Virus record (IMG/VR): IMGVR_UViG_3300047548_001418 | Location: 1-49,953 of that record | Reading direction: 5' to 3' (one strand) | Length of the DNA: 49,953 nucleotides | From: a virus | Shown: positions 4,309-19,559 of the stretch, piece after piece | Layout: every line of letters begins with the position of its first letter | Position numbering within the stretch: position 1 is the stretch's first letter | Notes under the pieces: generated by a model | Database searches by the model: none | What the model saw: only the letters and a program-made list of their open reading frames with translations | What the model was told of the DNA's origin: nothing | Made by a program: the position numbers and the translations under genes

Positions 4309-4316
4309 AATTTGCC

Positions 4317-6517: not shown

Positions 6518-6528
6518 TTTGAAATGAA

Positions 6529-6569: not shown

Positions 6570-6590
6570 CATTTTAAGAGTTTAATGTTA

Positions 6591-6767: not shown

Positions 6768-6818
6768 GATAAAGTTCCTTATAAGTGATACTGTATTTAT
6801 CACGCAAATAATAAAATA

Positions 6819-6893
6819 TGGTGGAGGCCCAGAGAATCGAACTCTTGTAGACATCTTCCGTGCAAGGGAAGACCGTAGCCCACTACTGCCCCC
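6819..6893 (-). tRNA. tRNA-Ala(UGC) with shortened D-arm
   Basis: Anticodon loop CTTGCAC, encoded ACCA, and the alanine identity pair G3-T70. The D-arm is reduced (GTAG-TGGG-CTAC) and the variable region is about 8 bases, giving a total of 75. Confidence 0.85.
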
Positions 6894-6932
6894 GATAAAA
6901 CTATTTATGCTTAAAATTTTCTATTAAAATTT

Positions 6933-7223: not shown

Positions 7224-7235
7224 AATTTATAATAT

Positions 7236-7308
7236 TGGAGCGGGTAGTCGGATTCGAACCGGCTTCTTTAGCTTGGAAGGCTAAGTCCTCTCCCAGGAGA
7301 ATACCCGC
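7236..7308 (-). tRNA. tRNA-Gly(UCC)
   Basis: Acceptor GCGGGTA/TACCCGC, anticodon loop CTTCCAA, encoded TCCA. Confidence 0.94.
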
Positions 7309-7315
7309 ATATAAT

Positions 7316-7774: not shown

Positions 7775-7784
7775 GTGCAATTAT

Positions 7785-7869
7785 TGGTGCCCCAGGTCGG
7801 ACTCGAACCGACACGCCTTTCGGCAATGGCTTCTAAGACCATCGTGGCTACCAGTTACACCACCGGGGC
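7785..7869 (-). tRNA. tRNA-Leu(UAG)
   Basis: Class II tRNA with long variable arm (GCCGAAAGGC), anticodon loop CTTAGAA, acceptor GCCCCGG/CTGGGGC, encoded ACCA. Confidence 0.94.
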
Positions 7870-7910
7870 ATGAATATACTTATCTTAATTTTTACATTCT
7901 ATAAAATTTA

Positions 7911-7984
7911 TGGTAGCCCTGAAAGGTAACGCTCCTTTGTCTTCCGATTATCAGTCGGGTGCTCTACTTTTGAGCTACAGGGCT
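7911..7984 (-). tRNA. tRNA-Ile(GAU) with atypical T-loop
   Basis: Acceptor AGCCCTG/CAGGGCT, anticodon loop CTGATAA, encoded ACCA. The T-loop is AGCGTTA instead of TTCRANN, and the D-loop AAAAGTA lacks the usual GG. Confidence 0.85.
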
Positions 7985-8031
7985 ATGTGTTTATATTACA
8001 CCTGAAAAGGAAACAATAAATATATATTATT

Positions 8032-8688
8032 ATGGATAATTATATGCTAAAAAAAGTGAATATTCCAAAGCCTATACCTGAAATTATTAACCATGTTGCT
8101 GATATAGCTAATCGCGACGATATTCCTGAGGGAGTAGTTTTTTTGAGTAATACCCTGGATTGGAAAAAAATTATTCCTCCCCATAAATATAATATAATAA
8201 AACAGAAAATATTTCATTCAAACTTATTAACTAAATTGATTCGTGAGCAATATGGTTCTTATTTAAAGGATCACCGATTAAATCCTTATATAGCAATTTT
8301 TGAAAATACTGATAGGTCATCTATGGCTCGTTATTTACCGCACACTGATCCGAGAAGAATGATTGGTTTCAATTATTACTTAAATTATGGTGGAAATAAT
8401 ACTACATTATCTGTTTATAACGAATCTAACTGGGAAGAAAACTCTACAATTAAAGATTGGGATGAATTAACTTTAATTAAAAGTTACACATTAAACCCTG
8501 AAACCTGGTACAGTTTTGATTCAAAACGATTCCATAGCGTAGAAAATATAGAAACAAAACGAATACTAATTTCAATGAGTCCTGCATCACCTATACCTAT
8601 ACCTGGAAATCCACCTGAATACGACCGAGCGTTAGATTCATTTGAAGCTATAACTAAAAAATATTCTGAATTGTTCGCAGATTTATAA
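8032..8688 (+). CDS. 2-oxoglutarate/Fe(II)-oxygenase-like protein
   Basis: 218 residues. The double-stranded beta-helix signature is visible: H104-T-D106 in PHTDPRRMIGFNYYLN, the distal H168 in FDSKRFHSV and the 2-oxoglutarate-binding R177 in ETKRILIS. This is the His-x-Asp...His...Arg arrangement of prolyl-4-hydroxylase/PiuC-type enzymes. The substrate is unknown. It is one of four such proteins in the window and one of few plus-strand genes, standing alone between tRNA-Ile and tRNA-Ser. AATAAATA upstream resembles a T4-type late promoter. Confidence 0.78.
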   Translation: MDNYMLKKVNIPKPIPEIINHVADIANRDDIPEGVVFLSNTLDWKKIIPPHKYNIIKQKIFHSNLLTKLIREQYGSYLKDHRLNPYIAIFENTDRSSMARYLPHTDPRRMIGFNYYLNYGGNNTTLSVYNESNWEENSTIKDWDELTLIKSYTLNPETWYSFDSKRFHSVENIETKRILISMSPASPIPIPGNPPEYDRALDSFEAITKKYSELFADL

Positions 8689-8702
8689 TCTGGAACTAAT
8701 TT

Positions 8703-8790
8703 TGGAGGAGAAGGTGGGATTCGAACCCACGGACCGTTACCGATCGTCTGATTTCAAGTCAGGTGCCTTAAACCACTCGACCACTTCTCC
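8703..8790 (-). tRNA. tRNA-Ser(UGA)
   Basis: Class II fold with a long variable arm, anticodon loop CTTGAAA, acceptor GGAGAAG/CTTCTCC and an encoded CCA tail (TCCA). Confidence 0.92.
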
Positions 8791-8798
8791 TTAACACT

Positions 8799-8878
8799 TG
8801 GAGGTCGGTGTAGGATTTGCACCTACGGTATATCTCGCTTTGCAGGCGAGTGCATTCATCTACTCTGCCAACCGACCA
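8799..8878 (-). tRNA. tRNA-Cys(GCA) with atypical loops
   Basis: Acceptor GGTCGGT/ACCGACC, anticodon loop CTGCAAA, encoded TCCA. The D-stem is three pairs with an 11-base loop lacking GG, and the T-loop is TGCAAAT. Confidence 0.85.
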
Positions 8879-9235
8879 TTAATCAATAGTTTTTCTTCTA
8901 TGCTTTTTAGCTACTTTAAATGCGATTCCCATGGCTGAGGCACAAGGAAATCGTTGATCCTTTTTAAATTTGAACCCATTCAAAGTAAATGGCTTTAATA
9001 CCACATCACCATTCCACCACCTACGCTCACATTTAATGTAGCCTAGTTCTTCTAACTGGTTACGCAGCTTGGTGAACTCATCGTGATCTTTATTGCCAAA
9101 GGTTACAATTTTATGACTTCCTTTTAGGATCTTTACAATGTCCTCAGGTGTAGGATTATCAAGATTATCAAGGCAATCGTATTCGCGCCTATCCTTGACA
9201 CTTGTCATATATTTTTCAGAAAGAGTAAAGTCCAT
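8879..9235 (-). CDS. Conserved phage protein, unknown function
   Basis: 118 residues with a GAGGTAA ribosome site. The protein is basic and soluble. The middle reads KLRNQLEELGYIKCERRWWNGDVVLKPFTLNG and the end AKKHRRKT; the pattern of a helix followed by a beta-rich, Trp-containing segment resembles small winged-helix or DNA-binding proteins, but no motif is decisive. The stop directly abuts the 5' end of tRNA-Cys (8878), so the two are likely on one transcript. I do not recognise a named family. Confidence 0.7.
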   Translation of the reverse strand: MDFTLSEKYMTSVKDRREYDCLDNLDNPTPEDIVKILKGSHKIVTFGNKDHDEFTKLRNQLEELGYIKCERRWWNGDVVLKPFTLNGFKFKKDQRFPCASAMGIAFKVAKKHRRKTID

Positions 9236-9250
9236 TTGCTTACCTCAAAA

Positions 9251-9344
<94 letters not shown>

Positions 9345-9364
9345 AATATAAAATAAATAATATT

Positions 9365-10099
9365 ATGAACAATTATAAAAGAATTTTTACTTTTGGTTGC
9401 AGCTTTTCTAACTATGCCTGGCCTACATGGGCAGATGTCATCGCTATTCAAACTAAAATACCTGTATACAATGGTGCTATTGCAGGATTAGGTAATGTTG
9501 GAATACTTCATCGTTTATTAGAATATGATTTAAAATTTAAATTCAATGACGATGATTTAGTTTTAGTAATGTGGACTTCTTGGTCTAGAGAAGACCGTTT
9601 TTTAGACGGTTCTTGGAAGAACGTTGGTAATGTTTTCAACAATAACTTTTACGATGACCATTTTACTTCAAAATACTGGTCTTGGGATAATGATATTATC
9701 AAAAATGCTACATCAATAATACTAGCAAATAGATGCTTTAGTATCGCACAAAACTATACAGCATTGAGCCATATGTCAGATATTTTTGGAAAACATGTAA
9801 AATCAGATAAGTTATCACTTTATGTGAACGATCTTCCCCAGTCTATAATGTTAAAAGTAAATTCTAATTTTGAAGGTAGAATTTATGATAGCCATCCTGA
9901 TATTATCAATCATGTCACCTTTTATAACAATCAAATATCTGATAAATTTGGGTTCCCAAAAGTAGAACTTGATAGTTGCTTATATGAATGGCAAAAATAT
10001 ATCGTTGATAATGTTCCCCAAACTACTTGGAAAGAACAGTCAAATTTTATAATAGCGTATTTGAATCAATATAAAAAATTGATGTCAATAAAATTGTAA
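9365..10099 (+). CDS. SGNH/GDSL-like protein
   Basis: 244 residues. It begins KRIFTFGCSFSNY, the block I motif of SGNH hydrolases in which GCSFS replaces GDSxS, followed by an asymmetric WADVIA and GAIAGLGNVGI region resembling block II. A clear C-terminal D-x-x-H is not obvious (SHPDIINH near residue 177 is a candidate), so catalysis is uncertain. SGNH-like proteins are common in aquatic T4-like phages with unknown substrates. ATAAATA precedes the ATG. A second member is at 20689. Confidence 0.68.
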   Translation: MNNYKRIFTFGCSFSNYAWPTWADVIAIQTKIPVYNGAIAGLGNVGILHRLLEYDLKFKFNDDDLVLVMWTSWSREDRFLDGSWKNVGNVFNNNFYDDHFTSKYWSWDNDIIKNATSIILANRCFSIAQNYTALSHMSDIFGKHVKSDKLSLYVNDLPQSIMLKVNSNFEGRIYDSHPDIINHVTFYNNQISDKFGFPKVELDSCLYEWQKYIVDNVPQTTWKEQSNFIIAYLNQYKKLMSIKL

Positions 10100-10579
10100 A
10101 GCTAAGGGACGCGGTCTTGTTCTGTCGTTTAAGAGTGAGCGGTAATGGGTCTGTATTTAAAACCGCAACTCTCCCAGATATCATCCTTCAACCAAAGAAA
10201 TATCTGTATTCGTATCCCACTTCTTGCTTTTCAAGACACTCTAGTGGCGCTTGAATCCAAGGATCGTTTACTGACTTTCTTCGGAACAAAATCATCGTCA
10301 TCTTTAATTCCTACAATAAGTTATGATATATTACTACTTTTTATTTTACAACCTTCCTAGTGTGTCTCCATTTGCTATTTACAAGATAGCCTACACAGTT
10401 GGTATGCTGACGCAACTTTATTAAAAGGTATCAGCCGGGAGGCTAGGTTTTGTCCTCTAAAATAGTACTTATACCATATTGAAACACACTCAACGGAGTT
10501 TAACCGTCCACCACTGCTCCTAACGGGGCAGGGCTGCACCACTGCAGGGCTTGTACTTTGCCCTAAGTGTGTTTTAATA
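10100..10579 (-). other. Intergenic region with small ORF and inverted-repeat element A
   Basis: 480 bases between the SGNH-like gene and tRNA-Lys. On the minus strand, tRNA-Lys is followed at once by inverted-repeat element A (10471-10584), then about 170 bases with no clear feature, then a 37-codon ORF. A plus-strand frame at 10145-10360 has no ribosome site and is probably not coding. Confidence 0.6.
10188..10301 (-). CDS. Possible small protein, 37 aa
   Basis: ATG at 10301 has a ribosome site (TAGGAA) and the frame ends in TGA after 37 codons. The product starts MTMILFRRKSVNDPW and ends with an aromatic stretch (GYEYRYFFG). It is basic at the N-terminus, has no membrane helix and resembles nothing I can name. 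It lies in an otherwise noncoding region. Confidence 0.4.
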   Translation of the reverse strand: MTMILFRRKSVNDPWIQAPLECLEKQEVGYEYRYFFG

Positions 10580-10584
10580 TGGTA
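10471..10584. repeat. Inverted-repeat element A (CCATATTGAARCACACT arms)
   Basis: Arms at 10471-10490 and 10566-10583. On the minus strand the first arm starts inside the CCA of tRNA-Lys. The interior can form four short hairpins (for example ACGG/CCGT and GGGC/GCCC). Confidence 0.7.
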
Positions 10585-10655
10585 GGGGCAGTAGGACTTG
10601 AACCTACAACTTACCGGTTAAAAGCCGGTTACTCTAACCATTGAGTTATACCCCC
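10580..10655 (-). tRNA. tRNA-Lys(UUU)
   Basis: Acceptor GGGGGTA/TGCCCCT, anticodon loop CTTTTAA, encoded ACCA. The CCA is the first part of inverted-repeat element A. Confidence 0.94.
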
Positions 10656-10755
10656 GCATTGCGTAAAATTGATTTAACGTGCCAACTCTACGCTACGCGG
10701 GGCATAGAGTGACACTAAGGTTTACTTACCTTCATGTCAAAACTCCTTTATAAAA

Positions 10756-11508
10756 TTATAACTTTAACTGAAAACTTCCTAATTCTATTTCTTTAATACT
10801 TTGCTTTTCTATTACTATCAATTTACCTTTAAACTGATTCCATTTTGCTTTATCTCTTTCTGTTTTGTAGCCCTTGACTTCAATATAGGCATCAAATTGA
10901 GGTAAGTAAAAATCAGGGTAATAAGTGCGTTTTCCATTCCATTCGTAAGAAAACCCCTCTGTGTTTCTTTCGCATTCTATATTTGTTACTTCACACCATT
11001 GGTAGAATTTTAATTCCCATCCACCTTGAAATTTTTTACCCTTGTAAATAATTTGTTTAGTTCTACCCCTGTTAGAAGAAGTGTAAGATTCGGGATTGTT
11101 CTCAACTGCTTTTTTCATAGAGGCGGAATGTTTCTGCCTTGCTGCGTCATCCCAAACTCTACAGCGATTGGCTTCACTAATTTTTTTAGAAGCTTCTTCA
11201 CTAAATTTAGGTTTAGGTAAACCTAGTTTTTCGGCTTTTAGAAATCCGTTTAAATGTTCTATTTCACCATTTTTTACTTTTTTCCAATAATTGGCAAAAT
11301 TTATACCATCTTTATACTGCGACAAATCAATTTGATTTGGATTATTTTCACATCTTATCAAATGCTGGGCCGCACTATTTAAATTTTTTGAAACTTTGCC
11401 GCAAAAATTACATTCTAATGATAATGCGGTTTTACATTTATGTGAATTAAAAAACCTATTTTGTATTTCTAATTTACATGAAACACAACTTGTCTTGTAC
11501 CTTAACAT
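10756..11508 (-). CDS. Zinc-finger PD-(D/E)XK (Vsr-like) homing endonuclease
   Basis: 250 residues behind a strong AGGAGTGA ribosome site. The N-terminus has paired Cys/His fingers (CVSC...H..C, CNFC...H...C). The central part resembles a NUMOD-type DNA-binding helix (EASKKISEANRCRVW). The nuclease core reads YYPDFYLPQFDAYIEVKGY near residue 195, a textbook PD-x(n)-E-x-K site, better preserved than in the homologues at 3179 and 5405. It sits 68 bases downstream of the intron-bearing tRNA-Met and may have been linked to that intron's spread; this is inference. Confidence 0.88.
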   Translation of the reverse strand: MLRYKTSCVSCKLEIQNRFFNSHKCKTALSLECNFCGKVSKNLNSAAQHLIRCENNPNQIDLSQYKDGINFANYWKKVKNGEIEHLNGFLKAEKLGLPKPKFSEEASKKISEANRCRVWDDAARQKHSASMKKAVENNPESYTSSNRGRTKQIIYKGKKFQGGWELKFYQWCEVTNIECERNTEGFSYEWNGKRTYYPDFYLPQFDAYIEVKGYKTERDKAKWNQFKGKLIVIEKQSIKEIELGSFQLKL

Positions 11509-11575
11509 AACATCACTCCTAATAATATTTATCTTAGGAGATCAACGATCTTACCTTTTTAGTAAGAAAAAGAAT

Positions 11576-11861
11576 TGGTGCCTCTGACAGGACTTGAACC
11601 TGTAACCCCCGAATTATGCTTACTACTATAGTTTTCACTACCAGATTTCTCTGTTTGTAGTCTGGACTATACCTTCACCTTAGTATTTCTACTTTAGGTG
11701 CTTCCCGTCTAGTCTCTACACCTTCCCTTTCGGGCTTGGCTCGGTATTACCATTTTACAGGCTTCACCGAATTTGAGAAGTTACATCTTATAAGTTTCCC
11801 TATAAGAGACCCAAGCTTTTACACTTAAGTTCGACGCTCTGACCAATTGAGCTACAGAGGC
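11576..11861 (-). tRNA. tRNA-Met(CAU), interrupted by a group I intron
   Basis: Exons 11828-11861 and 11576-11618. Spliced, they give acceptor GCCTCTG/CAGAGGC, D-stem GCTC/GAGC (elongator type), anticodon loop CTCATAA, T-loop TTCAAGT and ACCA. The intron lies between positions 33 and 34. The CAU anticodon could also be an Ile2 tRNA, but the body resembles elongator Met. Confidence 0.88.
11619..11827 (-). ncRNA. Group I intron in tRNA-Met (209 nt)
   Basis: Core elements are visible: Q-like GGTAATACCGAGC, R-like AGAGACTAGACGG and S-like AAGGTATAGTCC; GACTA/TAGTC form P7. P1 pairs ACTTAAG with CTTGGGT through U-G wobbles at the 5' splice site, and the last intron base is G. It belongs by look to the small tRNA introns (IC3 type). 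No ORF inside. A 37-base block is identical to the intron in tRNA-Thr. Confidence 0.9.
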
Positions 11862-12206
11862 ATATAAAACTTAATAAATCTAAAACAAGTTATAGTGTAA
11901 TACAATTCCAAGAACTTGTCAAGGGTTCTTTAACCTTGTGGCGTGTCACAAATATATTTGCTCATTAGCAACCTACTTCATAATGAACACGGTAAGTAGG
12001 TGCAAATATCTACACGGCACTTCTTAGTAAAAAACAGTTCGGGCAGGCTATGTCCCTCGTATTATTGACAGAAACTACATTACACCATATTGAAGCACAC
12101 TTTGTTAAGAACTCGTATACTCACCCCTATCGCGGCGCCACTACACGGGGACTCTTGTCGTCTGTTAACTTAACTAAACCTCTGCCGAAGAAAATGTGCT
12201 TCAATG
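11862..12206 (-). other. Noncoding spacer with promoter and element B
   Basis: 345 bases. It holds inverted-repeat element B (12082-12211), about 150 bases with no clear feature, and the sigma-70 promoter of tRNA-Met (11894-11922). No convincing coding frame. Confidence 0.6.
11894..11922 (-). promoter_or_regulatory. Sigma-70 promoter for intron-bearing tRNA-Met
   Basis: TTGACA, 17-base spacer, TACACT; the tRNA starts about 33 bases downstream of the -10. Confidence 0.8.
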
Positions 12207-12211
12207 TGGTG
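12082..12211. repeat. Inverted-repeat element B
   Basis: Arms 12082-12101 and 12193-12211, complementary with G-T wobbles. On the minus strand the first arm begins in the CCA of tRNA-Leu(UAA). The interior can pair CCCC with GGGG around GGCGCC. Confidence 0.65.
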
Positions 12212-12291
12212 CCCCGGGCCGGAATCGAACCGGCAAGCCTTGCGGCGGTGGATTTTAAGTCCACTATGTTTACCTTTTTCATCACCAGGGC
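12207..12291 (-). tRNA. tRNA-Leu(UAA)
   Basis: Class II, anticodon loop CTTAAAA, acceptor GCCCTGG/CCGGGGC, T-loop TTCGATT, encoded ACCA. Confidence 0.93.
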
Positions 12292-12825
12292 ATTGTTGTT
12301 AAAGATCAGTGCTGATTTCTCAGCGTATACAGCATAATACACTATCTACAATTTTCTCGCAAGTAGTATGATACCATATTGAAACACACTAGCCCATATC
12401 GGTCGTTGGCTTGGTTCTGAACATGCCCGATCTACTTATAATCGTTTGTGTACTTTAAACGACCAAGTTTACATCATGTCCCTATGACATTGAAAGTCGC
12501 TAGCGACATTCAGTAGTCATAATGTGCTTCAATATGGTGTCCAGCTGTCACGGCTTTTTGCTGGACATCCCACGAAAGGTTCTCATTTGAACCCTTACCG
12601 TACCATTCGATGTGTGTGGGATACTTTTTGGTGGAGACCGCCTATGTACAGCCATGAGCCGTACACCGTCCACGTTATCCATTTATCCTAGCTGCCAATC
12701 TTACTGAATGGACCTATGCCAAAATAAATTTCTGTCTCCATATTGAAACACACTATTGGACGCCTTTCGGTCGTTTAAGATTTGCCTCCAGCCTAAGCCT
12801 GCAAATCTCCTAATGCGTTTCAATA
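12292..12825 (-). other. Noncoding structured region with elements C and D
   Basis: 534 bases without a credible gene. It contains inverted-repeat elements D (12738-12828) and C (12371-12539). Between them is a segment whose minus strand can fold into ATCCCAC/GTGGGAT enclosing AAGGGTTC/GAACCTTT, followed by GTCCAGC/GCTGGAC and ACCA, reminiscent of a tRNA-like end but without an anticodon arm. Confidence 0.55.
12371..12539. repeat. Inverted-repeat element C
   Basis: Arms 12371-12390 and 12521-12539. The interior pairs GGTCGTT with AACGACC and holds a GTCGC-TA-GCGAC hairpin. On the minus strand it follows a GTCCAGC/GCTGGAC hairpin rather than a recognisable tRNA. Confidence 0.65.
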
Positions 12826-12828
12826 TGG
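12738..12828. repeat. Inverted-repeat element D
   Basis: Arms 12738-12754 and 12812-12828; the first minus-strand arm begins in the CCA of tRNA-Leu(CAA). The interior has an eight-pair stem AGATTTGC/GCAAATCT and a GAAA-capped hairpin. Confidence 0.7.
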
Positions 12829-12910
12829 TGCCCCGGGCCGGGATCGAACCGGCACTCCTTGCGGAACCAGATTTTGAGTCTGGCGCGTCTACCAATTTCA
12901 CCACCAGGGC
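12826..12910 (-). tRNA. tRNA-Leu(CAA)
   Basis: Class II, anticodon loop CTCAAAA, acceptor GCCCTGG/CCGGGGC, encoded ACCA. Confidence 0.93.
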
Positions 12911-12963
12911 AATGTATTCACTATTTGTTAATGATCGTTGCTGATTTCTCAGCGTATAAGTAT

Positions 12964-12992
12964 ATTATACATGAACACCTATTATTTGTCAA
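12964..12992 (-). promoter_or_regulatory. Perfect consensus sigma-70 promoter for tRNA-Leu(CAA)
   Basis: TTGACA, 17-base spacer, TATAAT, about 54 bases upstream of the tRNA. Confidence 0.85.
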
Positions 12993-12996
12993 ATCT

Positions 12997-13067
12997 TGGC
13001 GCGCCTAACAGGAATCAAACCTGTCTGCCAGCGGATGATCAGTCCGCCCGCAATACCAATCCAGCGC
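12997..13067 (-). tRNA. Atypical tRNA, anticodon GAU (Ile?), reduced D-arm
   Basis: 71 bases with encoded GCCA. A strong anticodon stem GCGGA/TCCGC holds loop CTGATCA, giving GAU, but C37 and G73 are unusual for Ile. Only 13 bases separate acceptor and anticodon stems, too few for a normal D-arm. The T-loop is TTTGATT. The acceptor GCGCTGG/TAGGCGC has one mismatch. It may be decayed. Confidence 0.55.
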
Positions 13068-13074
13068 ATAAACT

Positions 13075-13154
13075 TGGCGACCGATAGGGGTAACGATCCC
13101 CTCTGAATCTCCGCAGTGACAGTGCGGCGACCACTCCATGCAGTCCCATCGGCC
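13075..13154 (-). tRNA. tRNA-Asp(GUC) with atypical T-loop
   Basis: Acceptor GGCCGAT/ATCGGTC, G73 (Asp-like), anticodon loop CTGTCAC, encoded CCA. The T-loop is ATCGTTA and the variable region about 8 bases. Confidence 0.85.
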
Positions 13155-13160
13155 TATGTT

Positions 13161-13248
13161 TGGTGGGTGGTGATGGTAACGCTCCACGAGGCAACTTCCC
13201 AACTTATTATGCCGACGGTTTTACAGACCGCTGTCGGGGGCACCACCC
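13161..13248 (-). tRNA. tRNA-Tyr(GUA) apparently lacking a D-arm
   Basis: Perfect acceptor GGGTGGT/ACCACCC, A73 and CCA, anticodon loop CTGTAAA. Only about 10 bases (GCCCCCGACA) lie where the D-arm should be. The variable region is long (26 bases), as in bacterial Tyr tRNAs, and the T-loop is AGCGTTA. Confidence 0.75.
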
Positions 13249-13257
13249 ATATAATTT

Positions 13258-13342
13258 TGGCTCCGAGAGTAGGGATCGAACCTACGTACCTTTCGGTGTC
13301 TCTGGTTAACAGCCAGGCCTCTTACCACTTGAGTATCTCGGA
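13258..13342 (-). tRNA. tRNA-Asn(GUU) with long variable arm
   Basis: Acceptor TCCGAGA/TCTCGGA and G73 as in Asn tRNAs, anticodon loop CTGTTAA, encoded CCA, but a class II-like variable arm with ACC-GAAA-GGT. A normal tRNA-Asn is at 16107. Confidence 0.8.
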
Positions 13343-13350
13343 ATAAAACT

Positions 13351-13445
13351 TGGTACTCCTGGCAGGACTTGAACCTGCAACCATGCGCTAATCTGGCGCT
13401 AATACCGGGTATAAACCGGCTGCTCTACCATTGAGCTACAGGAGC
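13351..13445 (-). tRNA. tRNA-Ile(UAU) with long variable arm
   Basis: Anticodon loop TTTATAC gives UAU, rare in bacteria, which normally use lysidine-modified CAU for AUA. Acceptor GCTCCTG/CAGGAGT with a G1-T72 wobble, A73 and CCA. The variable arm is about 25 bases with GCGC/GCGC. Confidence 0.78.
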
Positions 13446-13450
13446 ATAAC

Positions 13451-13526
13451 TGGTACACCGTACGGGAATCGAACCCGTCTCTTCGGCTTGAAGGGCCGAG
13501 GACCTGACCCAGAAGTCCAACGGTGT
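13451..13526 (-). tRNA. tRNA-Glu(UUC)
   Basis: Acceptor ACACCGT/ACGGTGT, anticodon loop CCTTCAA (C at position 33), T-loop TTCGATT, encoded ACCA. Confidence 0.9.
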
Positions 13527-13534
13527 GTAATGTT

Positions 13535-13608
13535 TGGCGACCCGCGAGAGAATCGAACTCCCATCAAGAGGTTTGGAGTCTCTTGTGTTACCACTACACC
13601 AGCGGGCC
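13535..13608 (-). tRNA. tRNA-Trp(CCA)
   Basis: Acceptor GGCCCGC/GCGGGTC, G73 and CCA, D-stem GTGT/ACAC, anticodon loop CTCCAAA. Confidence 0.92.
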
Positions 13609-13739
13609 ATACTATTAGATGAGACCACTAACACCCCCTCACGCTGCATTCAAAATGATGAGGGCTAAGGCCGAATTGCACGGCGAACACGGCTGTGTAT
13701 CTCAAACTTTAAGGTGTGCTTTAGAATGATGACTGATAA

Positions 13740-13811
13740 ACACTGGGTAGGATTCGAACCTACGTTTCTCGGCATGGTAACCGAGCGTTCTATCCGCTAA
13801 ACTACTAGGAC
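13740..13811 (-). pseudogene. Degenerate tRNA-like gene with 8-base anticodon loop
   Basis: T-arm GTAGG-TTCGAAT-CCTAC and D-arm GTTT/GAAC are normal. The anticodon stem CTCGG/CCGAG encloses eight bases (TTACCATG), so the anticodon is ambiguous. Acceptor strands GTCCTAG and CCAGTGT pair poorly, and no CCA is encoded, unlike all intact neighbours. Confidence 0.65.
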
Positions 13812-13897
13812 CTAACTTAGCACCGCGGCAACGGGGGTCGTTAGTTCAGCCAACAACCTACTGCTAAGTTGCCGCTTATCAGTCTAAAACACACCGA

Positions 13898-14068
13898 GTT
13901 ATAAAAATGAGTGTGTCGTCATGTCCTTTTTCTTACCCTATAAGCCAATATTTCAGACCTTAGTAACAAGATGGCTCTCCCTCGACGACCAGGTAAACTG
14001 CCCATTTTAGACTATGAACTAAATCACAGTTGTACAGTTCCTCGCTATCGGACACTCATTTTTATAAC
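13898..14068. repeat. 17-bp perfect inverted repeat enclosing about 137 bases
   Basis: GTTATAAAAATGAGTGT at 13898-13914 is exactly complementary to 14052-14068. It forms one long arm of the noncoding RNA region. Confidence 0.75.
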
Positions 14069-14180
14069 CCAACACCATATTAAAGTAGACCAACGTCCTG
14101 CGCTACGGATGACCAAACCCGTACACACTTACTGGTCAGGTAAGCCCCGCTACCCGATATACGTCAATGTAGTCTGTATA

Positions 14181-14296
14181 ACACCATATTGAAGCACACT
14201 TAAATCAGGAATTCGCGGCAACCTGTTTCTGATTCCAATGTAGTTTACAAGCCGCCTTTTACATCCTACATTGTTTAGTATGTTTCAATATGGTGT
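14181..14296. repeat. Inverted-repeat element E
   Basis: Arms 14181-14200 and 14277-14296; the interior pairs CAATGTAG with CTACATTG and AATCAG with CTGATT. A third half-arm (ACACCATATTAAAGTAGAC) lies at 14072-14090 and could compete for pairing. Confidence 0.7.
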
Positions 14297-14315
14297 CTTT
14301 CGACACCAAATATCT

Positions 14316-14415
14316 CTGAGTTTTTACGCATCCGTGTTACCGCCACGGACTTATCATCCCTCAGGCCGCCCTCATTCGCTAGATGTTTAGAGTGCCTAGC
14401 GGGGTCGCGTTCCCC
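14316..14415 (-). ncRNA. Three-hairpin RNA motif, copy 1
   Basis: Minus strand: GGGG-AACGCGA-CCCC; GCTAG-(GCACTCTAAACAT)-CTAGC; linker GAGGGCGGC; then CTGAG...CTCAG enclosing TCCGTG-GCGGTAA-CACGGA. Copy 2 at 19155-19252 keeps all stems with compensatory changes. Confidence 0.8.
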
Positions 14416-14450
14416 ATACACACTTGATACGAACTACATACTACACTGAC

Positions 14451-14479
14451 ATTATATCGTACTACTGATTTAATGTCAA
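14451..14479 (-). promoter_or_regulatory. Consensus sigma-70 promoter for the ncRNA region
   Basis: TTGACA, 17-base spacer, TATAAT; transcription starts about 30 bases before the three-hairpin motif. Confidence 0.85.
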
Positions 14480-14534
14480 CCAGAGTTTTACGCTACTCTG
14501 AAACGTTTTGCCTGTAAGCTATCAGGCTGCTTTA

Positions 14535-14625
14535 TTCAGATACGCCCACAGTCGACTCCGATTACTCGGTTACGTTACAGTGTTCACGCCCTACAGTGGG
14601 CGTTCATTTCCAGGGCGTATCTGAA
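14535..14625 (-). ncRNA. 13-bp closed multi-hairpin RNA domain
   Basis: TTCAGATACGCCC (minus) pairs with GGGCGTATCTGAA and encloses ACGCCC-ACTGTA-GGGCGT and CCGA-GTAA-TCGG. Because ACGCCC/GGGCGT occurs in both outer and inner stems, two alternative folds are possible. Confidence 0.65.
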
Positions 14626-14720
14626 CCTTACTGCTATGAAAAACGTCGCATCATTTACTACTGTTTTCGCTTTTACGCTACTCGGGCAGTTGATTTCTTC
14701 GTTTTTCACAGCATAGAGAC

Positions 14721-14749
14721 ATTATATCTTAGACCTGATTTATTGTCAA
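14721..14749 (-). promoter_or_regulatory. Consensus sigma-70 promoter, upstream ncRNA
   Basis: TTGACA, 17-base spacer, TATAAT, just upstream of the 13-pair arm 14633-14645/14700-14712. Confidence 0.85.
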
Positions 14750-14772
14750 ACTTCGACCTAAGATTTTTATTC

Positions 14773-14848
14773 TGGCGCGACCGGCAGGATTCGAACCCAC
14801 GTAGTACAAGGTAGAAGCTTGTTGCCTAATCCACTCGGCCACGGTCGC
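14773..14848 (-). tRNA. tRNA-Arg(UCU)
   Basis: Acceptor GCGACCG/CGGTCGC, G73 and CCA, anticodon loop CTTCTAC, T-loop TTCGAAT. Confidence 0.92.
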
Positions 14849-14857
14849 AATAATGAG

Positions 14858-14886
14858 ATTATAGTATAACTAGGATTTATTGTCAA
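14858..14886 (-). promoter_or_regulatory. Consensus sigma-70 promoter for tRNA-Arg(UCU)
   Basis: TTGACA, 17-base spacer, TATAAT; the -35 overlaps the stop codon of the upstream gene. Confidence 0.85.
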
Positions 14887-15179
14887 TGAGTCCTGCAAAC
14901 TCTTACTTGTCTGTGGGCTAGAAGCCTACCCCACGCATCATAAAGAGGTTCTTGAACCCAGTAACATGAATGCTGAATAACCACAGGCGGTTGATGAATG
15001 ATGATCGGTGGTTGTGGATAAGGATTAATATGTGGACCCATATAAGGCATAACATGCTGTTGAATGATACTACCTATAATCATGCCACCCACAATGCCAG
15101 CAGCAATGTCATTACGATCATTCGCCTGTGATGGCAATACAACCGATGAGAATGCTAAAGCTACGATGAGTTTTTTCAT
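14883..15179 (-). CDS. Small exported protein with glycine-zipper segment, unknown function
   Basis: 98 residues from the ATG at 15179. The longer upstream frame overlaps the HNH gene and is rejected. The N-terminus (MKKLIVALAFSSVVLPSQAN) is a good Sec signal peptide with cleavage after SQA. A glycine-rich hydrophobic stretch (GIVGGMIIGSII) follows, then a Pro/His-rich tract (HINPYPQPPIIIHQPP) and two cysteines near the C-terminus. It resembles small periplasmic glycine-zipper proteins of bacteria. It is probably exported to the envelope; a role in the phage cycle is unknown. No clear ribosome site is seen. Confidence 0.65.
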   Translation of the reverse strand: MKKLIVALAFSSVVLPSQANDRNDIAAGIVGGMIIGSIIQQHVMPYMGPHINPYPQPPIIIHQPPVVIQHSCYWVQEPLYDAWGRLLAHRQVRVCRTH

Positions 15180-15195
15180 AAGTGTATTTAGCAAA

Positions 15196-15798
15196 CTAGT
15201 AACTTTTACCTTGGAGGTATCTCTCTCTTCTACTATGTCTCCCATTTCCTCTATTTTTTCCTTTATAAGTAGGAGTTTGACTGTGGCAATTAGGACACAA
15301 AAAGCAAAGATTTTCAAGCTTATTGTTCAAGCTATTACCATCCTTGTGTTCAATTTCTAAAGTAATAGGTTCATTATTATATGAGTCAATTCTGCATTTA
15401 GCGCAAAAATAACCAAATTGAGAAGTAAGGTACTTACGAATAGTGCCTCTTTTTGGTTTAGATTCTCCTGCCAACCAATCCTGAACATTTTGCTTATACT
15501 CTTGTTCTTTTTGACATTTGGTATTGCAATACTTACCGTTTCGGCTCTTTAGCCGCGTATCACAATTCAAACATTTTGCTTTTTCTAAGGAAGCTCGTTT
15601 GTGATTACTAAAGGAGGCTGAACATGAAGATCCGCAAAAAATGTTTGTTCTTGTGTCATAAGGTATGACATTTAAGCAGAATTTACACAATTTAGGATTT
15701 TCTAAATACGCATTAATCCTAGCTTCTTTTTTCAAAGCAGAAATAATTTTAGACTTTTCTGCTCCTAATTTCCCTGCCTCTGAATGAGTAAGTGGCAT
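15196..15798 (-). CDS. HNH homing endonuclease with zinc fingers
   Basis: 200 residues. Two N-terminal Cys clusters (CKFC...CGSSC and CLNC...CNTKC) resemble those of the PD-(D/E)XK endonucleases here, suggesting swapped DNA-binding modules. The C-terminal HNH nuclease is clear: CAKC...LEIEHKDGNSLNN...LCPNCHSQT. A ribosome site (TAGGTAA) precedes the ATG. The gene starts 15 bases downstream of the CCA of the intron-containing tRNA-Thr, an arrangement expected for an endonuclease assisting intron or tRNA-locus homing. Association with that intron is inferred only from position. Confidence 0.9.
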   Translation of the reverse strand: MPLTHSEAGKLGAEKSKIISALKKEARINAYLENPKLCKFCLNVIPYDTRTNIFCGSSCSASFSNHKRASLEKAKCLNCDTRLKSRNGKYCNTKCQKEQEYKQNVQDWLAGESKPKRGTIRKYLTSQFGYFCAKCRIDSYNNEPITLEIEHKDGNSLNNKLENLCFLCPNCHSQTPTYKGKNRGNGRHSRRERYLQGKSY

Positions 15799-15812
15799 AA
15801 ATTACCTAAAAA

Positions 15813-16098
<286 letters not shown>

Positions 16099-16106
16099 AT
16101 AAAAAA

Positions 16107-16182
16107 TGGCTCCAACTCCTGGGCTTGAACCAGGGACCCACGGTTTAACAGACCGTTGCTCTACCGACTGAGCTAAGTTGGA
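16107..16182 (-). tRNA. tRNA-Asn(GUU), standard
   Basis: Acceptor TCCAACT/AGTTGGA, G73 and CCA, anticodon loop CTGTTAA. Confidence 0.94.
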
Positions 16183-16210
16183 ATCGTTCTTACAAAGTTA
16201 TTTATACGCT

Positions 16211-16239
16211 ATACTACAGCATATAAATTTTTTCGTCAA
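16211..16239 (-). promoter_or_regulatory. Sigma-70 promoter for tRNA-Asn
   Basis: TTGACG, 17-base spacer, TAGTAT. A TATAAATA octamer (16199-16206) lies between it and the tRNA. Confidence 0.65.
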
Positions 16240-16255
16240 TATTTAGTTAACCAAT

Positions 16256-16819
16256 CTATGACAACAAAATCCTTGAATGTTTTGGAACCCCCGCAAGCAA
16301 GTATTCCATTTGATCACCCAAAATATTACGACTTTGAAGAATCATGTTTTCGTAATGGTTAGGTACATATGGAGCATACAGCAATTCCAAACCGCTTTCT
16401 TTCAGAGTTTTATTGCTTTTGCGAGAGTTACAGTTTTTACAACTGGTTACTACATTCATCCAAGTGTTTTCTCCGCCGCGACTACGAGGAACAATGTGAT
16501 CACGACTAAGGTGATTGTAGTTAGCAAAATGTCCACCGCAGTACGCGCATACATTTCTGTCTCTACCAAATAAAGTTCGGTTAGACAGTGCTACAGTAGC
16601 GTGCTTGTGCGGATTGAATCCTGGACCCTTGATGGCAATGATACTAGGTGTTTCTAGGTAACTCATTGTTCCGTCTTGCTGAATACCACCGTGGTAACGG
16701 GCAACAATCTCACCCATAGACCATGCTACTGAATTAGTAGCGTGGTATGAAATAGCGTCATCGTATCCAATCCATTGACGCGGGGTACCTGAAATATCTA
16801 GTGCTAGGACAGCCATCAT
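16256..16819 (-). CDS. HNH endonuclease (bacterial-type)
   Basis: 187 residues behind a strong AAAGGAG site. The HNH core reads CAYCGG...LSRDHIVPRSRGGENTWMN and CKNCNSRKSNKTLKE at about residues 96-145, like the widespread bacterial HNH proteins of restriction or repair contexts, rather than the finger-rich phage homing enzymes here. The N-terminal 90 residues (ALDISGTPRQWIGYDDAISY) are also typical of that bacterial group. It lies between tRNA-Asn and tRNA-Arg with its own leader. DNA cleavage is likely; whether it homes, degrades host DNA or acts in packaging is unknown. Confidence 0.88.
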   Translation of the reverse strand: MMAVLALDISGTPRQWIGYDDAISYHATNSVAWSMGEIVARYHGGIQQDGTMSYLETPSIIAIKGPGFNPHKHATVALSNRTLFGRDRNVCAYCGGHFANYNHLSRDHIVPRSRGGENTWMNVVTSCKNCNSRKSNKTLKESGLELLYAPYVPNHYENMILQSRNILGDQMEYLLAGVPKHSRILLS

Positions 16820-16867
16820 AAACTCCTTTCTTGATTGATACTTGTCACATATGTATTTACTTCTTTT

Positions 16868-16942
16868 TGGCGGGTCATGAGAGATTCGAACTCCCGACTA
16901 CTGGTTTCGAAGACCAGAACTCTTCCACTGAGCTAATGACCC
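16868..16942 (-). tRNA. tRNA-Arg(UCG)
   Basis: Acceptor GGGTCAT/ATGACCC, G73 and CCA, anticodon loop CTTCGAA. A TTGACA with TATAGA at 15 bases (16949-16975) lies upstream. Confidence 0.93.
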
Positions 16943-16975
16943 TTTAAGTCTATATCAAATAGTATTTAATGTCAA

Positions 16976-17051
16976 TGGTGCCGGTTGTTGGTTACGCTCC
17001 AACCCCTACGGATTTTCAGTCCGTCGCTTCCACTAGGTTAGCTTAACCGGC
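16976..17051 (-). tRNA. tRNA-Phe(GAA) with atypical T-loop
   Basis: Acceptor GCCGGTT/AACCGGC, anticodon loop CTGAAAA, encoded ACCA. The T-loop is AGCGTAA with a perfect T-stem GTTGG/CCAAC. The D-stem has three pairs. Confidence 0.88.
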
Positions 17052-17231
17052 TTTAGTTTCTAACTTTACTTTTTTGAGTGCGTCTTTACGCATAAGCATA
17101 ACTCTGGCGTTGCCGATGCGGTTGACCTTAAGATATTCTACTCCTTCAATAACTTCGGGATTTTTAAGATCCACGACAGAACACTCAAATTTTTCTTTAT
17201 TCCAAATGTTTTCAAAAATCACAGATTTCAT
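17043..17231 (-). CDS. Small protein, unknown function, overlapping tRNA-Phe
   Basis: 62 residues with a good ribosome site (AGGAGT). The product is a small basic beta-rich-looking protein (KSVIFENIWNKEKFECSVVD...RVMLMRKDALKKV). The TAA stop (17043-17045) lies nine bases inside the 5' end of tRNA-Phe, so the message must be either translated or processed into the tRNA. No family is recognised. The ribosome site and a second in-frame regularity of codons make it a likely real gene. Confidence 0.65.
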   Translation of the reverse strand: MKSVIFENIWNKEKFECSVVDLKNPEVIEGVEYLKVNRIGNARVMLMRKDALKKVKLETKAG

Positions 17232-17252
17232 CGTAGAACTCCTATATAAATT

Positions 17253-17326
17253 TGGGGTGCCTTGGGGAATCGAACCCTCGCCTACTGATTCACAGTCAGT
17301 TTTGCTACCACTACACTAAAGACACC
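17253..17326 (-). tRNA. tRNA-His(GUG)
   Basis: Anticodon loop CTGTGAA, with the extra G-1 paired to C73, the histidine identity element, then CCA. Acceptor GTGTCTT/AAGGCAC. Confidence 0.95.
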
Positions 17327-17334
17327 ATTGTACT

Positions 17335-17410
17335 TGGTCTCGGACACAGGCCTCGAACCTGCACCTTCCTGGCCCCAAACCAGGCGGACTTCCAATTATC
17401 CCAATCCGAG
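17335..17410 (-). tRNA. tRNA-Pro(UGG), copy 2
   Basis: Acceptor CTCGGAT/GTCCGAG, anticodon loop TTTGGGG, encoded ACCA. Confidence 0.93.
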
Positions 17411-17511
17411 AATAAATTCTTGCTACCCACCCCCACCTCGTTAGCAGCATGTCCAACCTTTAAGTAGTCGGATTCCCTACAACTTTTGACACCTCATGGT
17501 GTCGATAGTTC

Positions 17512-17910
17512 TTACAAATCTAATGCTTTCAATAACTTTTTCATTACTAATGTATTAGGATCCCTAAATTTCTCAGTATCTTGAAATCCTAAAAGAACGC
17601 CTACTTGTGCTACTGCACCACTACGATAGATACCTGCCATACAATGTACTACAACATTCATTTTATTGTCAAGTGCATGTACCAATAATTTAGTAATTTC
17701 TTTTGCTTGCTCATCACTAATTGGTGTAGCCCAAGATAGTTGTTCTTCTACATCGTCAAATTTAAAACGATGAACTTCACGGAAAGTGCGTTTGGGTCTA
17801 GGAAATTCTGCTTTTGAATCCACAATCTGGATGAGCATAGCGTTGGGGCCAGGTTCAAAATGATGTCCCGCTTCAATTCCCTCAAACGATACATTTTCAA
17901 TCCAAGGCAT
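17512..17910 (-). CDS. Dual-specificity/tyrosine phosphatase-like protein
   Basis: 132 residues with a strong AAGGAGG site. The P-loop HCMAGIYRSG (about residues 89-98) fits the Cys-x5-Arg signature HCxxGxxRS of protein tyrosine phosphatases, with a general-acid candidate in the preceding loop (FDDVEEQLSW). The N-terminus SFEGIEAGHHFEPGPNAMLIQI is typical of small phage and bacterial phosphatases of this type. It would hydrolyse phosphoester bonds on proteins, sugars or RNA 5' ends; the substrate is unknown. It lies between tRNA-Met and a 100-base spacer with a GACACC-TCAT-GGTGTC hairpin. Confidence 0.85.
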   Translation of the reverse strand: MPWIENVSFEGIEAGHHFEPGPNAMLIQIVDSKAEFPRPKRTFREVHRFKFDDVEEQLSWATPISDEQAKEITKLLVHALDNKMNVVVHCMAGIYRSGAVAQVGVLLGFQDTEKFRDPNTLVMKKLLKALDL

Positions 17911-17928
17911 GATGCCTCCTTATAAATT

Positions 17929-18005
17929 TGGTAGAGACAGCTGGGTTCGAACCAGCGACCTCGGGCTTATGAGACCCGCGTTACTTCCAACTGAACTATG
18001 TCTCC
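17929..18005 (-). tRNA. tRNA-Met(CAU), elongator or Ile2
   Basis: Acceptor GGAGACA/TGTCTCT, anticodon loop CTCATAA, T-loop TTCGAAC, encoded ACCA. Third CAU tRNA; identity Met versus lysidine-Ile is not decided. Confidence 0.88.
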
Positions 18006-18013
18006 ATTATACT

Positions 18014-18042
18014 ATAATACTTTATCTTCATTTATTTGTCAA
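18014..18042 (-). promoter_or_regulatory. Sigma-70 promoter for tRNA-Met
   Basis: TTGACA, 17-base spacer, TATTAT, ending about 9 bases upstream of the tRNA; it abuts the CCA of tRNA-Thr. Confidence 0.75.
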
Positions 18043-18043
18043 G

Positions 18044-18118
18044 TGGTGCCCCAAGAGAGATTTGAACTCCCGACCTACTGTTTACGAAACAGTTGCACTA
18101 CCACTGTGCTATTAGGGC
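18044..18118 (-). tRNA. tRNA-Thr(CGU)
   Basis: Acceptor GCCCTAA/TTGGGGC, anticodon loop TTCGTAA, T-loop TTCAAAT, encoded ACCA. Confidence 0.92.
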
Positions 18119-18336
18119 ATGATAATAGTGGAGCAGCTAACTATCTACCTGTGTAGAACTTATTAGCGGGTCACGCATAAAGGAGTATGTAGGGGCTCAA
18201 CTTTATCGTCTAGCTCAAAATAAACAGGATGCATTTTAACGTGGTTAGATTAGAAGTCTAGTGTTAAATTTTTGCTGTTAGCATCCTTAAACTAGAGCCG
18301 GCATGTGGATAAACACATGTATCATCCGGCATTGAA

Positions 18337-18388
18337 TGGCGCGTCCTAGAGGATTCGAACCTCTATGTATCCAAATTAACCTTTCAAC
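18337..18388 (-). pseudogene. tRNA 3' fragment
   Basis: A T-arm (AGAGG-TTCGAAT-CCTCT), the acceptor 3' strand AGGACGC and GCCA are intact, but no matching 5' half (GCGTCCT) or anticodon arm exists; the sequence runs directly into the CCA of tRNA-Arg(ACG). Likely a recombination remnant. Confidence 0.7.
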
Positions 18389-18463
18389 TGGCGCCTCGTC
18401 CAGGAATTGAACCTAGAACTAAAGTTTCGTAGACTTTGATGATATCCTTTTCACCAACGAGGC
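18389..18463 (-). tRNA. tRNA-Arg(ACG)
   Basis: Acceptor GCCTCGT/ACGAGGC, G73 and CCA, anticodon loop CTACGAA. A34 would need deamination to inosine by host TadA. Overlaps the endonuclease stop region by 13 bases. Confidence 0.9.
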
Positions 18464-18903
18464 TTAAAAATAGAAAAAAATCCATTATCATACTCCCAAT
18501 GACAATTGGGACATAATTGTATTAAATTCTCAGGAGAATTGACTTCCTTTAATAAAGCAGTAGTGTCAAAACTAACTATTGCTTTTATGTGGGCGTACTC
18601 TATATGTTTATCATACTCACATATGTGGCACCTTTTATTTTTTAATTCAGGATTCCAATTTTGGGCAAACAACCTAATGTTGTTTTTAAATTTAGAAATT
18701 CCGGCACCTTTTGTATATTCTTCAATAGTTAAATTCATAATTTCCCAAGATCGGCGATTAAATCCTTGTTGTTTTGTTTTGTTTTCCTTAAGTTTTTTTC
18801 TCTTCCAATCCCTAACTCTGTACCTATTAGAGCACTGTACTGTACAGAATTTTTGATTATGGGTGTTCTTATTAAAAATATTACTGCACTCCATACATTT
18901 CAT
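18451..18903 (-). CDS. HNH homing endonuclease
   Basis: 150 residues with ribosome site AAAGGG. The N-terminus has a Cys finger (CMECSNIF...CTVQC) followed by an arginine/lysine-rich stretch (RVRDWKRKKLKEN). The nuclease core is CHICEYDKHIEYAHIKAI...NLIQLCPNCHWEYD, an HNH type in which H-x-A-H-I provides the catalytic and metal residues. The TGA stop lies 13 bases inside tRNA-Arg(ACG), and a broken tRNA copy lies just beyond, consistent with repeated cutting or repair at this tRNA. TATAAATA about 30 bases upstream resembles a late promoter. Confidence 0.88.
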   Translation of the reverse strand: MKCMECSNIFNKNTHNQKFCTVQCSNRYRVRDWKRKKLKENKTKQQGFNRRSWEIMNLTIEEYTKGAGISKFKNNIRLFAQNWNPELKNKRCHICEYDKHIEYAHIKAIVSFDTTALLKEVNSPENLIQLCPNCHWEYDNGFFSIFKPRW

Positions 18904-18978
18904 ATGTATACCCTTTCATTTTATTTATTTATAAAATAAACGGGATAAAAATAATTTTAGTGTACAACCCGATAAATT

Positions 18979-19052
18979 TGGCAGGGGTATCAGGATTTGA
19001 ACCTGAACTATTGCAGTCAAAGTGCAGTGTGCTGCCGTTACACTATACCCCA
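18979..19052 (-). tRNA. tRNA-Gln(UUG)
   Basis: Acceptor TGGGGTA/TACCCCT with an open first pair (typical of Gln), G73 and CCA, anticodon loop CTTTGAC. Confidence 0.9.
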
Positions 19053-19154
19053 ATTGACACACTCTTGCGAATGTGTGTAGTAAAGCACACTAACCGCTCT
19101 GTTTCTTCTGTATGCCTACAGATTGTATCCATTCGTCTAGTGTGCTTTACTACT

Positions 19155-19252
19155 CTAGGTTTTTACCATCTGTGTTATCGCCACAGACTTCTCATCCCCT
19201 AGGCCGCCCTCATTAAGCCCATGTTTAAAGTGCGGGCAGGATCGCGTTCCCT
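19155..19252 (-). ncRNA. Three-hairpin RNA motif, copy 2
   Basis: Minus strand: AGGG-AACGCGA-TCCT; GCCC-(GCACTTTAAACAT)-GGGC; linker GAGGGCGGC; then CTAGG...CCTAG enclosing TCTGTG-GCGATAA-CACAGA. Same loops as copy 1 but different, still complementary, stems. Confidence 0.8.
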
Positions 19253-19263
19253 ATCACACTCAC

Positions 19264-19304
19264 TACAAAACAAAAAACCCTGAGACCTTTCGATTCTCAG
19301 GGTT
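19264..19304 (-). terminator. Strong intrinsic terminator
   Basis: Ten-pair stem AACCCTGAGA/TCTCAGGGTT followed on the minus strand by TTTTGTTTTG, 24 bases after the stop of the 45-codon gene. Confidence 0.85.
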
Positions 19305-19327: not shown

Positions 19328-19465
19328 TTACCTGTGCCCTGAGACTCCTCTCTGGTCGTTTATGCCGCGAATACTTGTATTACGTGCAGCCGCAAACGAC
19401 CCCATGGTCTCTAATGACCACTCGGGTTTTTGCTCAAACATATAATGACAAGTAAAGTAATTCAT
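19328..19465 (-). CDS. Possible small protein, 45 aa
   Basis: ATG at 19465 with an AAAGGA site about 12 bases upstream; the frame ends in TAA and is followed at once by a strong terminator, and a sigma-70 promoter lies 65 bases upstream. That makes a complete small transcription unit. The product starts MNYFTCHYMFEQKPEW and ends SIRGINDQRGVSGHR; it is not recognised. The same DNA can fold (GTCGTTT/AAACGAC), so a noncoding RNA is the alternative. Confidence 0.45.
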   Translation of the reverse strand: MNYFTCHYMFEQKPEWSLETMGSFAAARNTSIRGINDQRGVSGHR

Positions 19466-19530: not shown

Positions 19531-19559
19531 ATCCTATAATAACTAGGAATAAATGTCAA
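19531..19559 (-). promoter_or_regulatory. Sigma-70 promoter for the small terminated unit
   Basis: TTGACA, 17-base spacer, TAGGAT, partly inside the 3' end of the upstream gene. Confidence 0.65.

Follow-up and report, generated by a model that had tools for sequence, protein, structure and literature searches.

The window analysed here, a 49,953-nucleotide (nt) stretch of viral DNA (positions 1 to 49,953 of the IMG/VR virus record IMGVR_UViG_3300047548_001418), carries on its minus strand two copies of a pseudoknotted RNA, the core. Copy 2 is located ahead of a phage transfer RNA (tRNA) array and copy 1 within it (Table 1). Based on comparison with homologous loci, the core is very probably the structured 5' segment of the tRNA-array transcript, situated behind a ribosome-mediated attenuator of the trp/his type that would sense the whole pool of charged tRNAs. 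The fold, the position, the leader open reading frame (ORF) with its composition, the mutually exclusive covarying pairings, and the match between missing residues and missing tRNAs are all read from the sequences themselves.

The initial annotation described a repeated three-hairpin motif. The repetition stands, and the loops, linker and stems listed for the two copies are found exactly, at the same minus-strand positions; the hairpin count does not, the structural parse of 42 distinct sequences giving instead four helices (H1 to H4) plus a pseudoknot. In copy 1, H1 reads GGGG-AACGCGA-CCCC, H2 reads GCTAG-GCACTCTAAACAT-CTAGC, and H3 (CTGAG/CTCAG) encloses H4 (TCCGTG-GCGGTAA-CACGGA); in copy 2 the same elements are AGGG-AACGCGA-TCCT, GCCC-GCACTTTAAACAT-GGGC, and CTAGG/CCTAG around TCTGTG-GCGATAA-CACAGA. 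Across the family, H1 is GGG-AACGCGA-CCC with the variants GGC/GCC, AGGG/TCCT and GAGC/GCTT, H2 comprises 3-5 base pairs (bp) with a loop of up to 13 nt and is followed by the linker TAATGWGGGCGGC, H3 surrounds an internal loop (GGATGNNAAG / TGnGTAAAA), and the H4 loop is GCGATAA. The pseudoknot, which the initial annotation had missed, is formed by a 5' strand AAGTGN that pairs with NCACTT of the H2 loop, crossing H1. Its two strands vary together as AGTG/CACT, CGTG/CACG (L019, L057, L102, L163), GGTG/CACC (L098) and CATG/CATG (L096), while the adjoining pair is TG, CG, GC or TA.

That the stems differ in sequence yet remain complementary was borne out by the covariation test proposed with the initial annotation: under a tree-evolved null, seven of 5995 column pairs were significant at E<0.05, and all seven are pairs of the structure, in H2, H3 and H4. 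H1 and the pseudoknot did not reach significance in this all-pairs test, and are supported by compensatory variants. Over the 42 aligned sequences, standard pairs fill 98.0% of the pair cells versus 30-45% with the partner slid, 17 of the 23 pairs show changes in both partners, and 500 shuffles never attained this. Folding of a single copy is ordinary (z about -1.5), so the case rests on comparison; the minus strand is identified as the RNA strand because of the G-U pairs. A more distant subfamily has AACGAGG in place of the first loop. Here AACGAGG occurs with AAC before GGGCGG (34 sequences) and AACGAGA with AAT (5 sequences), and a contact between loop and linker is possible.

Behind the core lies the long 3' stem, here called P5, that the initial annotation had reported for both copies; it contains AAGCACACT in copy 2 (19137-19153 pairing with 19077-19093) and a relative, ACACCATATTGAA..TTCAATATGGTGT containing AGTGTGCTTC, in copy 1. 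P5 is mostly 15-24 bp long with exchangeable apical modules, and is followed by P6, which carries a GNRA-type tetraloop or another module. A switch between the 5' AGUGUG strand and P6 was considered and dropped, as P6 covaries internally, whereas the 5' strand covaries with the loop of H2. A second modular RNA motif was observed in P5 or P6 of several loci (L002, L005, L022, L028, L030, L033, L038, L041, L043, L056-L058 and L062). It consists of a hairpin with a covarying stem and a 7-nt loop YNYYGAC, then TCTAAAA and a second, small hairpin whose loop is CATAG, and its occurrence in P6 or inside P5 indicates that modules are swapped between these positions.

Exact patterns retrieved 4, 12, 55, 20 and 109 contigs from IMG/VR, well beyond what chance would give, and the core recurs in about 150 phage contigs. 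The initial annotation had not recognised the family, and Rfam 15 likewise offers no match that explains the motif, with none at the gathering threshold and none credible at E <= 10. Searches of cultured phages, by blastn with three core copies and by tblastn with two leaders, turned up nothing credible, and the covariance model likewise gave no credible hit in Phabio, Xanthomonas phage X1 or Serratia phage LC53. With its X1 counterpart, the large ribonucleotide reductase subunit shares 60% identity. The GTDB genomes gave only three pattern matches, all by chance, and the covariance model found nothing in the two genomes behind the matches L014 and L016. On this comparative evidence, the core is a real, new and well-supported pseudoknotted RNA family absent from Rfam.

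The core has a constant place 5' of tRNA arrays, another feature not seen in the initial annotation. Downstream tRNAs on the same strand were found in essentially every locus with room for them, and on the opposite strand in none; in L036, the exception, 1.5 kb of downstream sequence holds no tRNA according to ARAGORN. Most copies stand at the start of the array, and there is one core per contig, even in a contig of 270 kb, two being found only in this window. In the window, ARAGORN places 27 tRNAs in the array, from 2651 to 19052, every one of them on the minus strand.

Upstream of copy 2 lie a promoter, a leader peptide and an attenuator, which had also gone unnoticed. Copy 2 is among 87 loci, out of 92 with sufficient sequence, in which an ATG-initiated ORF of 34-57 codons ends 21-29 nt before a strong intrinsic terminator hairpin; this ORF was picked by terminator strength, and its composition was not used. 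At other loci, TTGACA-17-TA[TC]AAT sites 200-300 nt upstream of the core number 21 on the same strand versus none on the opposite strand. The encoded peptides are exceptionally complete: all 20 amino acids are present in 56 of 82 unique peptides versus 3.1 expected from equal-length windows of other ORFs on the same contigs, and within the sensing zone (codons 1 to n-12) at least 19 are present in 50 of the 82 versus 3.1 expected. When the loci retrieved through their terminator alone (see below) are added, 100 of 130 leaders contain all 20. One leader (L167) accommodates all 20 in 35 residues. In 39 of 40 leaders the synonymous codons are more diverse than under genome usage, and Cys, Trp and His usually occur once per leader. 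A small conserved ORF of 52-66 amino acids (aa), for example MNFEDFRKQRNAKFLAEHELDDDALEKLIEEKFNRARAYHEAFQKREEEVILD, is located between terminator and core in some loci (L019, L022, L028, L034, L038, L041, L043, L056-L058 and L062). It belongs to no known family and, given its place between attenuator and core, is probably under the same control.

The residues of the leader agree with the tRNAs of the array. Comparison of leaders with the 19 arrays that are complete within the available sequence gave 13 cases in which leader and array both lack an amino acid, 7 in which only the leader lacks it, 23 in which only the array lacks it, and 318 in which both have it (odds ratio 25.7), a value reached in none of 2000 leader permutations (p<0.0005). 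The agreement is seen in at least three lineages. Trp is the sole absentee in leader and array alike of L026, the lineage of L046, L088 and L136 has no tRNAs for Asp, Glu, His and Tyr and misses most of these residues from its leader, and in L125, whose array is cut, Cys and His are missing from both.

Independent retrieval led to the same arrangement. A terminator-only pattern, blind to tRNA, leader and core, returned 94 stretches. Fifty of the newly retrieved loci lacking an exact core encode leaders with 19 or more different amino acids, and tRNAs follow in nearly every one; the few that have no leader are at contig ends. The covariance model finds the core, often far diverged, in 57 of 60 terminator-retrieved loci. 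Considering all terminators that had a suitable ORF but no exact core, tRNAs lay downstream of 41 leaders containing 19 or more amino acids, while 4 further such leaders were cut off and 3 had no tRNAs; of the leaders with fewer than 19, 1 had tRNAs and 22 had none.

Segment 1, formed by the final codons of the ORF, is able to pair with the 5' arm of the terminator (segment 2) in 40 of 40 leaders tested, and this pairing excludes that between segment 2 and the 3' arm (segment 3). The two partners change together (GGGGTCC/GGACCCC, AGGGTCC/GGACCCT, GGGGTCT/AGACCCC and GGGTTCT/AGAACCC; CTCAGGG/CCCTGAG in copy 2). Segment 1 falls in all three reading frames across leaders (40, 24 and 7), so that it is the RNA, not the peptide, that is conserved here. 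The partition function was computed for the RNA outside a ribosome placed at each codon in turn; the terminator probability came to 0.96 at the stop codon, 0.82 when the ribosome stood ten codons short of it, and about 0.2-0.3 at more upstream positions. With the ribosome 20 codons before the stop, the median probability was 0.01 versus a mean of 0.93 for the same stretch shuffled, and lower than shuffled in 81 of 82 cases. The fold without a ribosome also favours readthrough for most leaders. The calculations thus predict that a stall before the last 10 or so codons leads to readthrough, and a ribosome reaching them to termination.

In the proposed mechanism, a sigma70-type promoter would start a leader transcript with a short ORF of near-complete amino acid content and varied codons. 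With sufficient charged tRNAs, a ribosome at the end of the ORF would cover segment 1, segments 2 and 3 would form the terminator, and the array would be off. An upstream stall for lack of a charged tRNA, or the absence of a ribosome, would let segment 1 capture segment 2, and with the terminator blocked the polymerase would continue through the core, P5, P6 and the tRNAs. Shortage of almost any charged tRNA would in this way turn on the phage's own tRNA genes. We infer that such stalling and switching of transcription take place in vivo, with host tRNA destruction, starvation or codon mismatch as candidate triggers.

This arrangement shares with the trp, his, thr and ilv attenuators a promoter with a short translated leader, a terminator before the controlled genes, an exclusive antiterminator overlapping the ORF, and control codons related to the product, the leader residues corresponding to what the operon supplies. 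It differs in breadth, since trp-type leaders contain a run of one or few amino acids, and the thr and ilv leaders sense two or three, whereas here nearly all 20 are found together with many synonymous codons. Trp-type attenuators control biosynthesis, while the unit controlled here would be a viral tRNA array with a pseudoknotted RNA in front; the design also has three segments, and the untranslated leader is predicted to read through. No report of such a leader, or of an attenuator sensing all amino acids, was found in the open-access full-text literature searched, an absence that is not proof.

Several observations weigh against this reading. Copy 1 has neither leader nor attenuator. In copy 2, which has both, the terminator is favoured almost everywhere at equilibrium (0.8-0.9), and upstream capture of segment 2 is seen only when folding is computed co-transcriptionally (0.81, prior to synthesis of segment 3); by these calculations this copy would rank with the weaker switches. 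The Val codon of its leader is also situated beyond the point where segment 1 begins. Shine-Dalgarno sequences are weak, with no match of at least 4 nt in 40 of 83 leaders, and the peptide is under mild purifying selection (N/S, nonsynonymous to synonymous changes, about 0.65 of random). One lineage (L046, L088) has only 14-16 residue types. Leader and array disagree for Cys in L020 and Phe in L139, mismatches partly explained by ARAGORN missing odd or intron-bearing tRNAs, and the loci are related, so that the counts are not independent.

With respect to the core, we lean towards a role in cis on the readthrough transcript, in elongation through the long untranslated array or in 5' processing or protection, a preferred but unproven reading. 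Its main rival, a realistic possibility, is that the core, together with P5 and P6, acts in trans as an independent ornate RNA and merely shares the tRNA operon, with the attenuator controlling the whole unit. GOLLD and ROOL are structured phage and prophage RNAs of unknown function often located beside tRNA islands (PMC12286853), and this location, the elaborate conserved loops, the pseudoknot and the exchangeable P5 and P6 modules recall them. Further sigma70-like promoters between RNA and tRNAs in L007, L023, L028 and L050 also favour this rival. The core is nevertheless always upstream of the tRNAs, on their strand and in one copy per array, which suits a cis element. It belongs to the readthrough transcript and, unlike GOLLD and ROOL, is placed strictly 5' of the array behind the attenuator, which it nearly always accompanies. 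GOLLD and ROOL measure about 600-800 nt and form a homo-oligomeric nanocage, whereas the present RNA has only about 200 nt and gives no match to their Rfam covariance models.

A somewhat less likely possibility is that the core acts in antitermination, in a put-like or boxA/Nus-like manner, and helps polymerase through the long, mostly untranslated array. Like the rrn leader (boxA, NusB/S10) and HK022 put, it stands near the start of a long transcript that is not translated; it is always first in the transcription unit, and the window's second, array-internal copy restarts a block behind its own promoter. The conserved loop GCACTTTAAACAT recalls boxA, but the loop varies (CACGTAAAACA, CACTCAAAACA) where boxA needs constancy, and a boxA/Nus leader was dropped as a candidate when homologues with CACGTAAAACA, CACTCAAAACA and CACGCTAAACA proved to change key positions. 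Moreover, only two same-strand intrinsic terminators occur within 142 kb of arrays, which leaves only Rho-dependent termination to oppose. The core also differs from the rrn and put elements in its four helices and pseudoknot.

For the leader, it is improbable that the attenuator responds to slowed translation in general, whether through antibiotics, ribosome loss or host shut-off, and not to charged tRNAs specifically. The readthrough favoured by the ribosome-free fold would fit such a sensor, which would however need neither all 20 residues nor high codon diversity nor agreement with the array. Still less credit, in our estimate very little, goes to the ORF being a conserved small protein before an ordinary terminator with an incidental composition: the selection on the peptide and the residues common to part of the family (GFMPxYWS..NDRTPE) point that way, but 14 of 25 peptides below 42% identity retain all 20 amino acids in different orders, segment 1 is preserved at the nucleotide level across three frames, folding shows the end of the ORF masking the terminator, and the missing residues follow the missing tRNAs. 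Finally, the idea of the core as a phage Y RNA with a Ro60-type binding partner has next to no probability and is largely refuted for want of a consistent partner: like YrlA the core is a small structured RNA in a tRNA-rich phage context, and the window encodes a DUF2828/DUF7788 protein (PHROG 850, 'RNA-binding protein', 646-2061, minus strand) that is perhaps related to Ro60, such a protein occurring in some of these phages, but most core-bearing genomes have no partner (DUF7788 family in only 8 of 48 core-bearing records, TROVE in 0 of 14) and no Rfam Y or YrlA model matches.

Why large phages carry tRNA arrays, and how their use is timed, is mainly discussed in terms of codon-usage mismatch and of the need to replace host tRNAs that either host or phage has destroyed. 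The attenuator reading, if true, would make this question directly testable and favour a replace-on-demand logic; the switch would be the broadest amino-acid attenuator known, and a compact natural reporter of any tRNA shortage. The full combination, a universal sensor of charged tRNAs in which one leader peptide samples all 20 amino acids and much of the codon set, and in which a stall at any of them, for example after the action of host anticodon nucleases, releases transcription of replacement tRNAs, with the core as a new class of cis-acting RNA needed for array expression, is plausible but falls short of probable.

Table 1. Features of the leader, core and array in the window.
Feature	Position	Strand	Description or evidence
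Leader promoter, sigma70-like	19531..19559	-	TTGACA-17-TAGGAT; -10 weak in this copy
Leader ORF	19328..19465	-	45 aa, MNYFTCHYMFEQKPEWSLETMGSFAAARNTSIRGINDQRGVSGHR followed by stop; all 20 amino acids
Segment 1	19337..19347	-	GAGTCTCAGGG; in end of leader ORF, complementary to terminator 5' arm
Intrinsic terminator	19272..19302	-	CCCTGAGA-ATCGAAAGG-TCTCAGGG-TTTTTT
Segment 2	19295-19302	-	Terminator 5' arm
Segment 3	19278-19285	-	Terminator 3' arm
RNA core, copy 2	19155..19260	-	Covariance model match, 137.5 bits; structural parse, covariation
Pseudoknot, copy 2	19256-19260 / 19229-19232	-	5' strand / 3' strand CACT
H1, copy 2	19249-19252/19238-19241	-	
H2, copy 2	19234-19237/19217-19220	-	
H3, copy 2	19198-19202/19155-19159	-	
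H4, copy 2	19182-19187/19169-19174	-	
P5, copy 2	19077..19153	-	17-bp stem, apical part exchangeable
P6	19057..19076	-	ACACATTC-GCAA-GAGTGTGT hairpin (GNRA loop), directly before first tRNA
tRNA-Gln, first of array	18979..19052	-	ARAGORN
Promoter before copy 1	14451..14479	-	Consensus TTGACA-17-TATAAT, immediately before copy 1
RNA core, copy 1	14316..14425	-	Within array; H1, H2, H3, H4; covariance model match, 120.6 bits
Pseudoknot, copy 1	14421-14425 / loop 14383-14394	-	AAGTG with CACTC

Adjoining copy 1 upstream, a structured noncoding stretch (14440-14750, minus strand) is preceded by a second consensus promoter, TTGACA-17-TATAAT. Its parts comprise GCTGTGAAAAACG..CGTTTTTCATAGC, CAGATACGCCC..GGGCGTATCTG and a repeated GAGTAGCGTAAAA, and it is probably another RNA. 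The array of the window also holds two group I introns (11641-11836 and 15875-16074, minus strand), several HNH-type endonuclease ORFs, and a tRNA with an 8-nt anticodon loop (13738-13812, minus strand; ARAGORN anticodon 'acca'), possibly a frameshift suppressor. In L034 (4320-4393) and its relatives L019 and L039, a tRNA with the anticodon CTA, labelled amber suppressor or Pyl-like by ARAGORN, is located about 4-5 kb upstream of the array.
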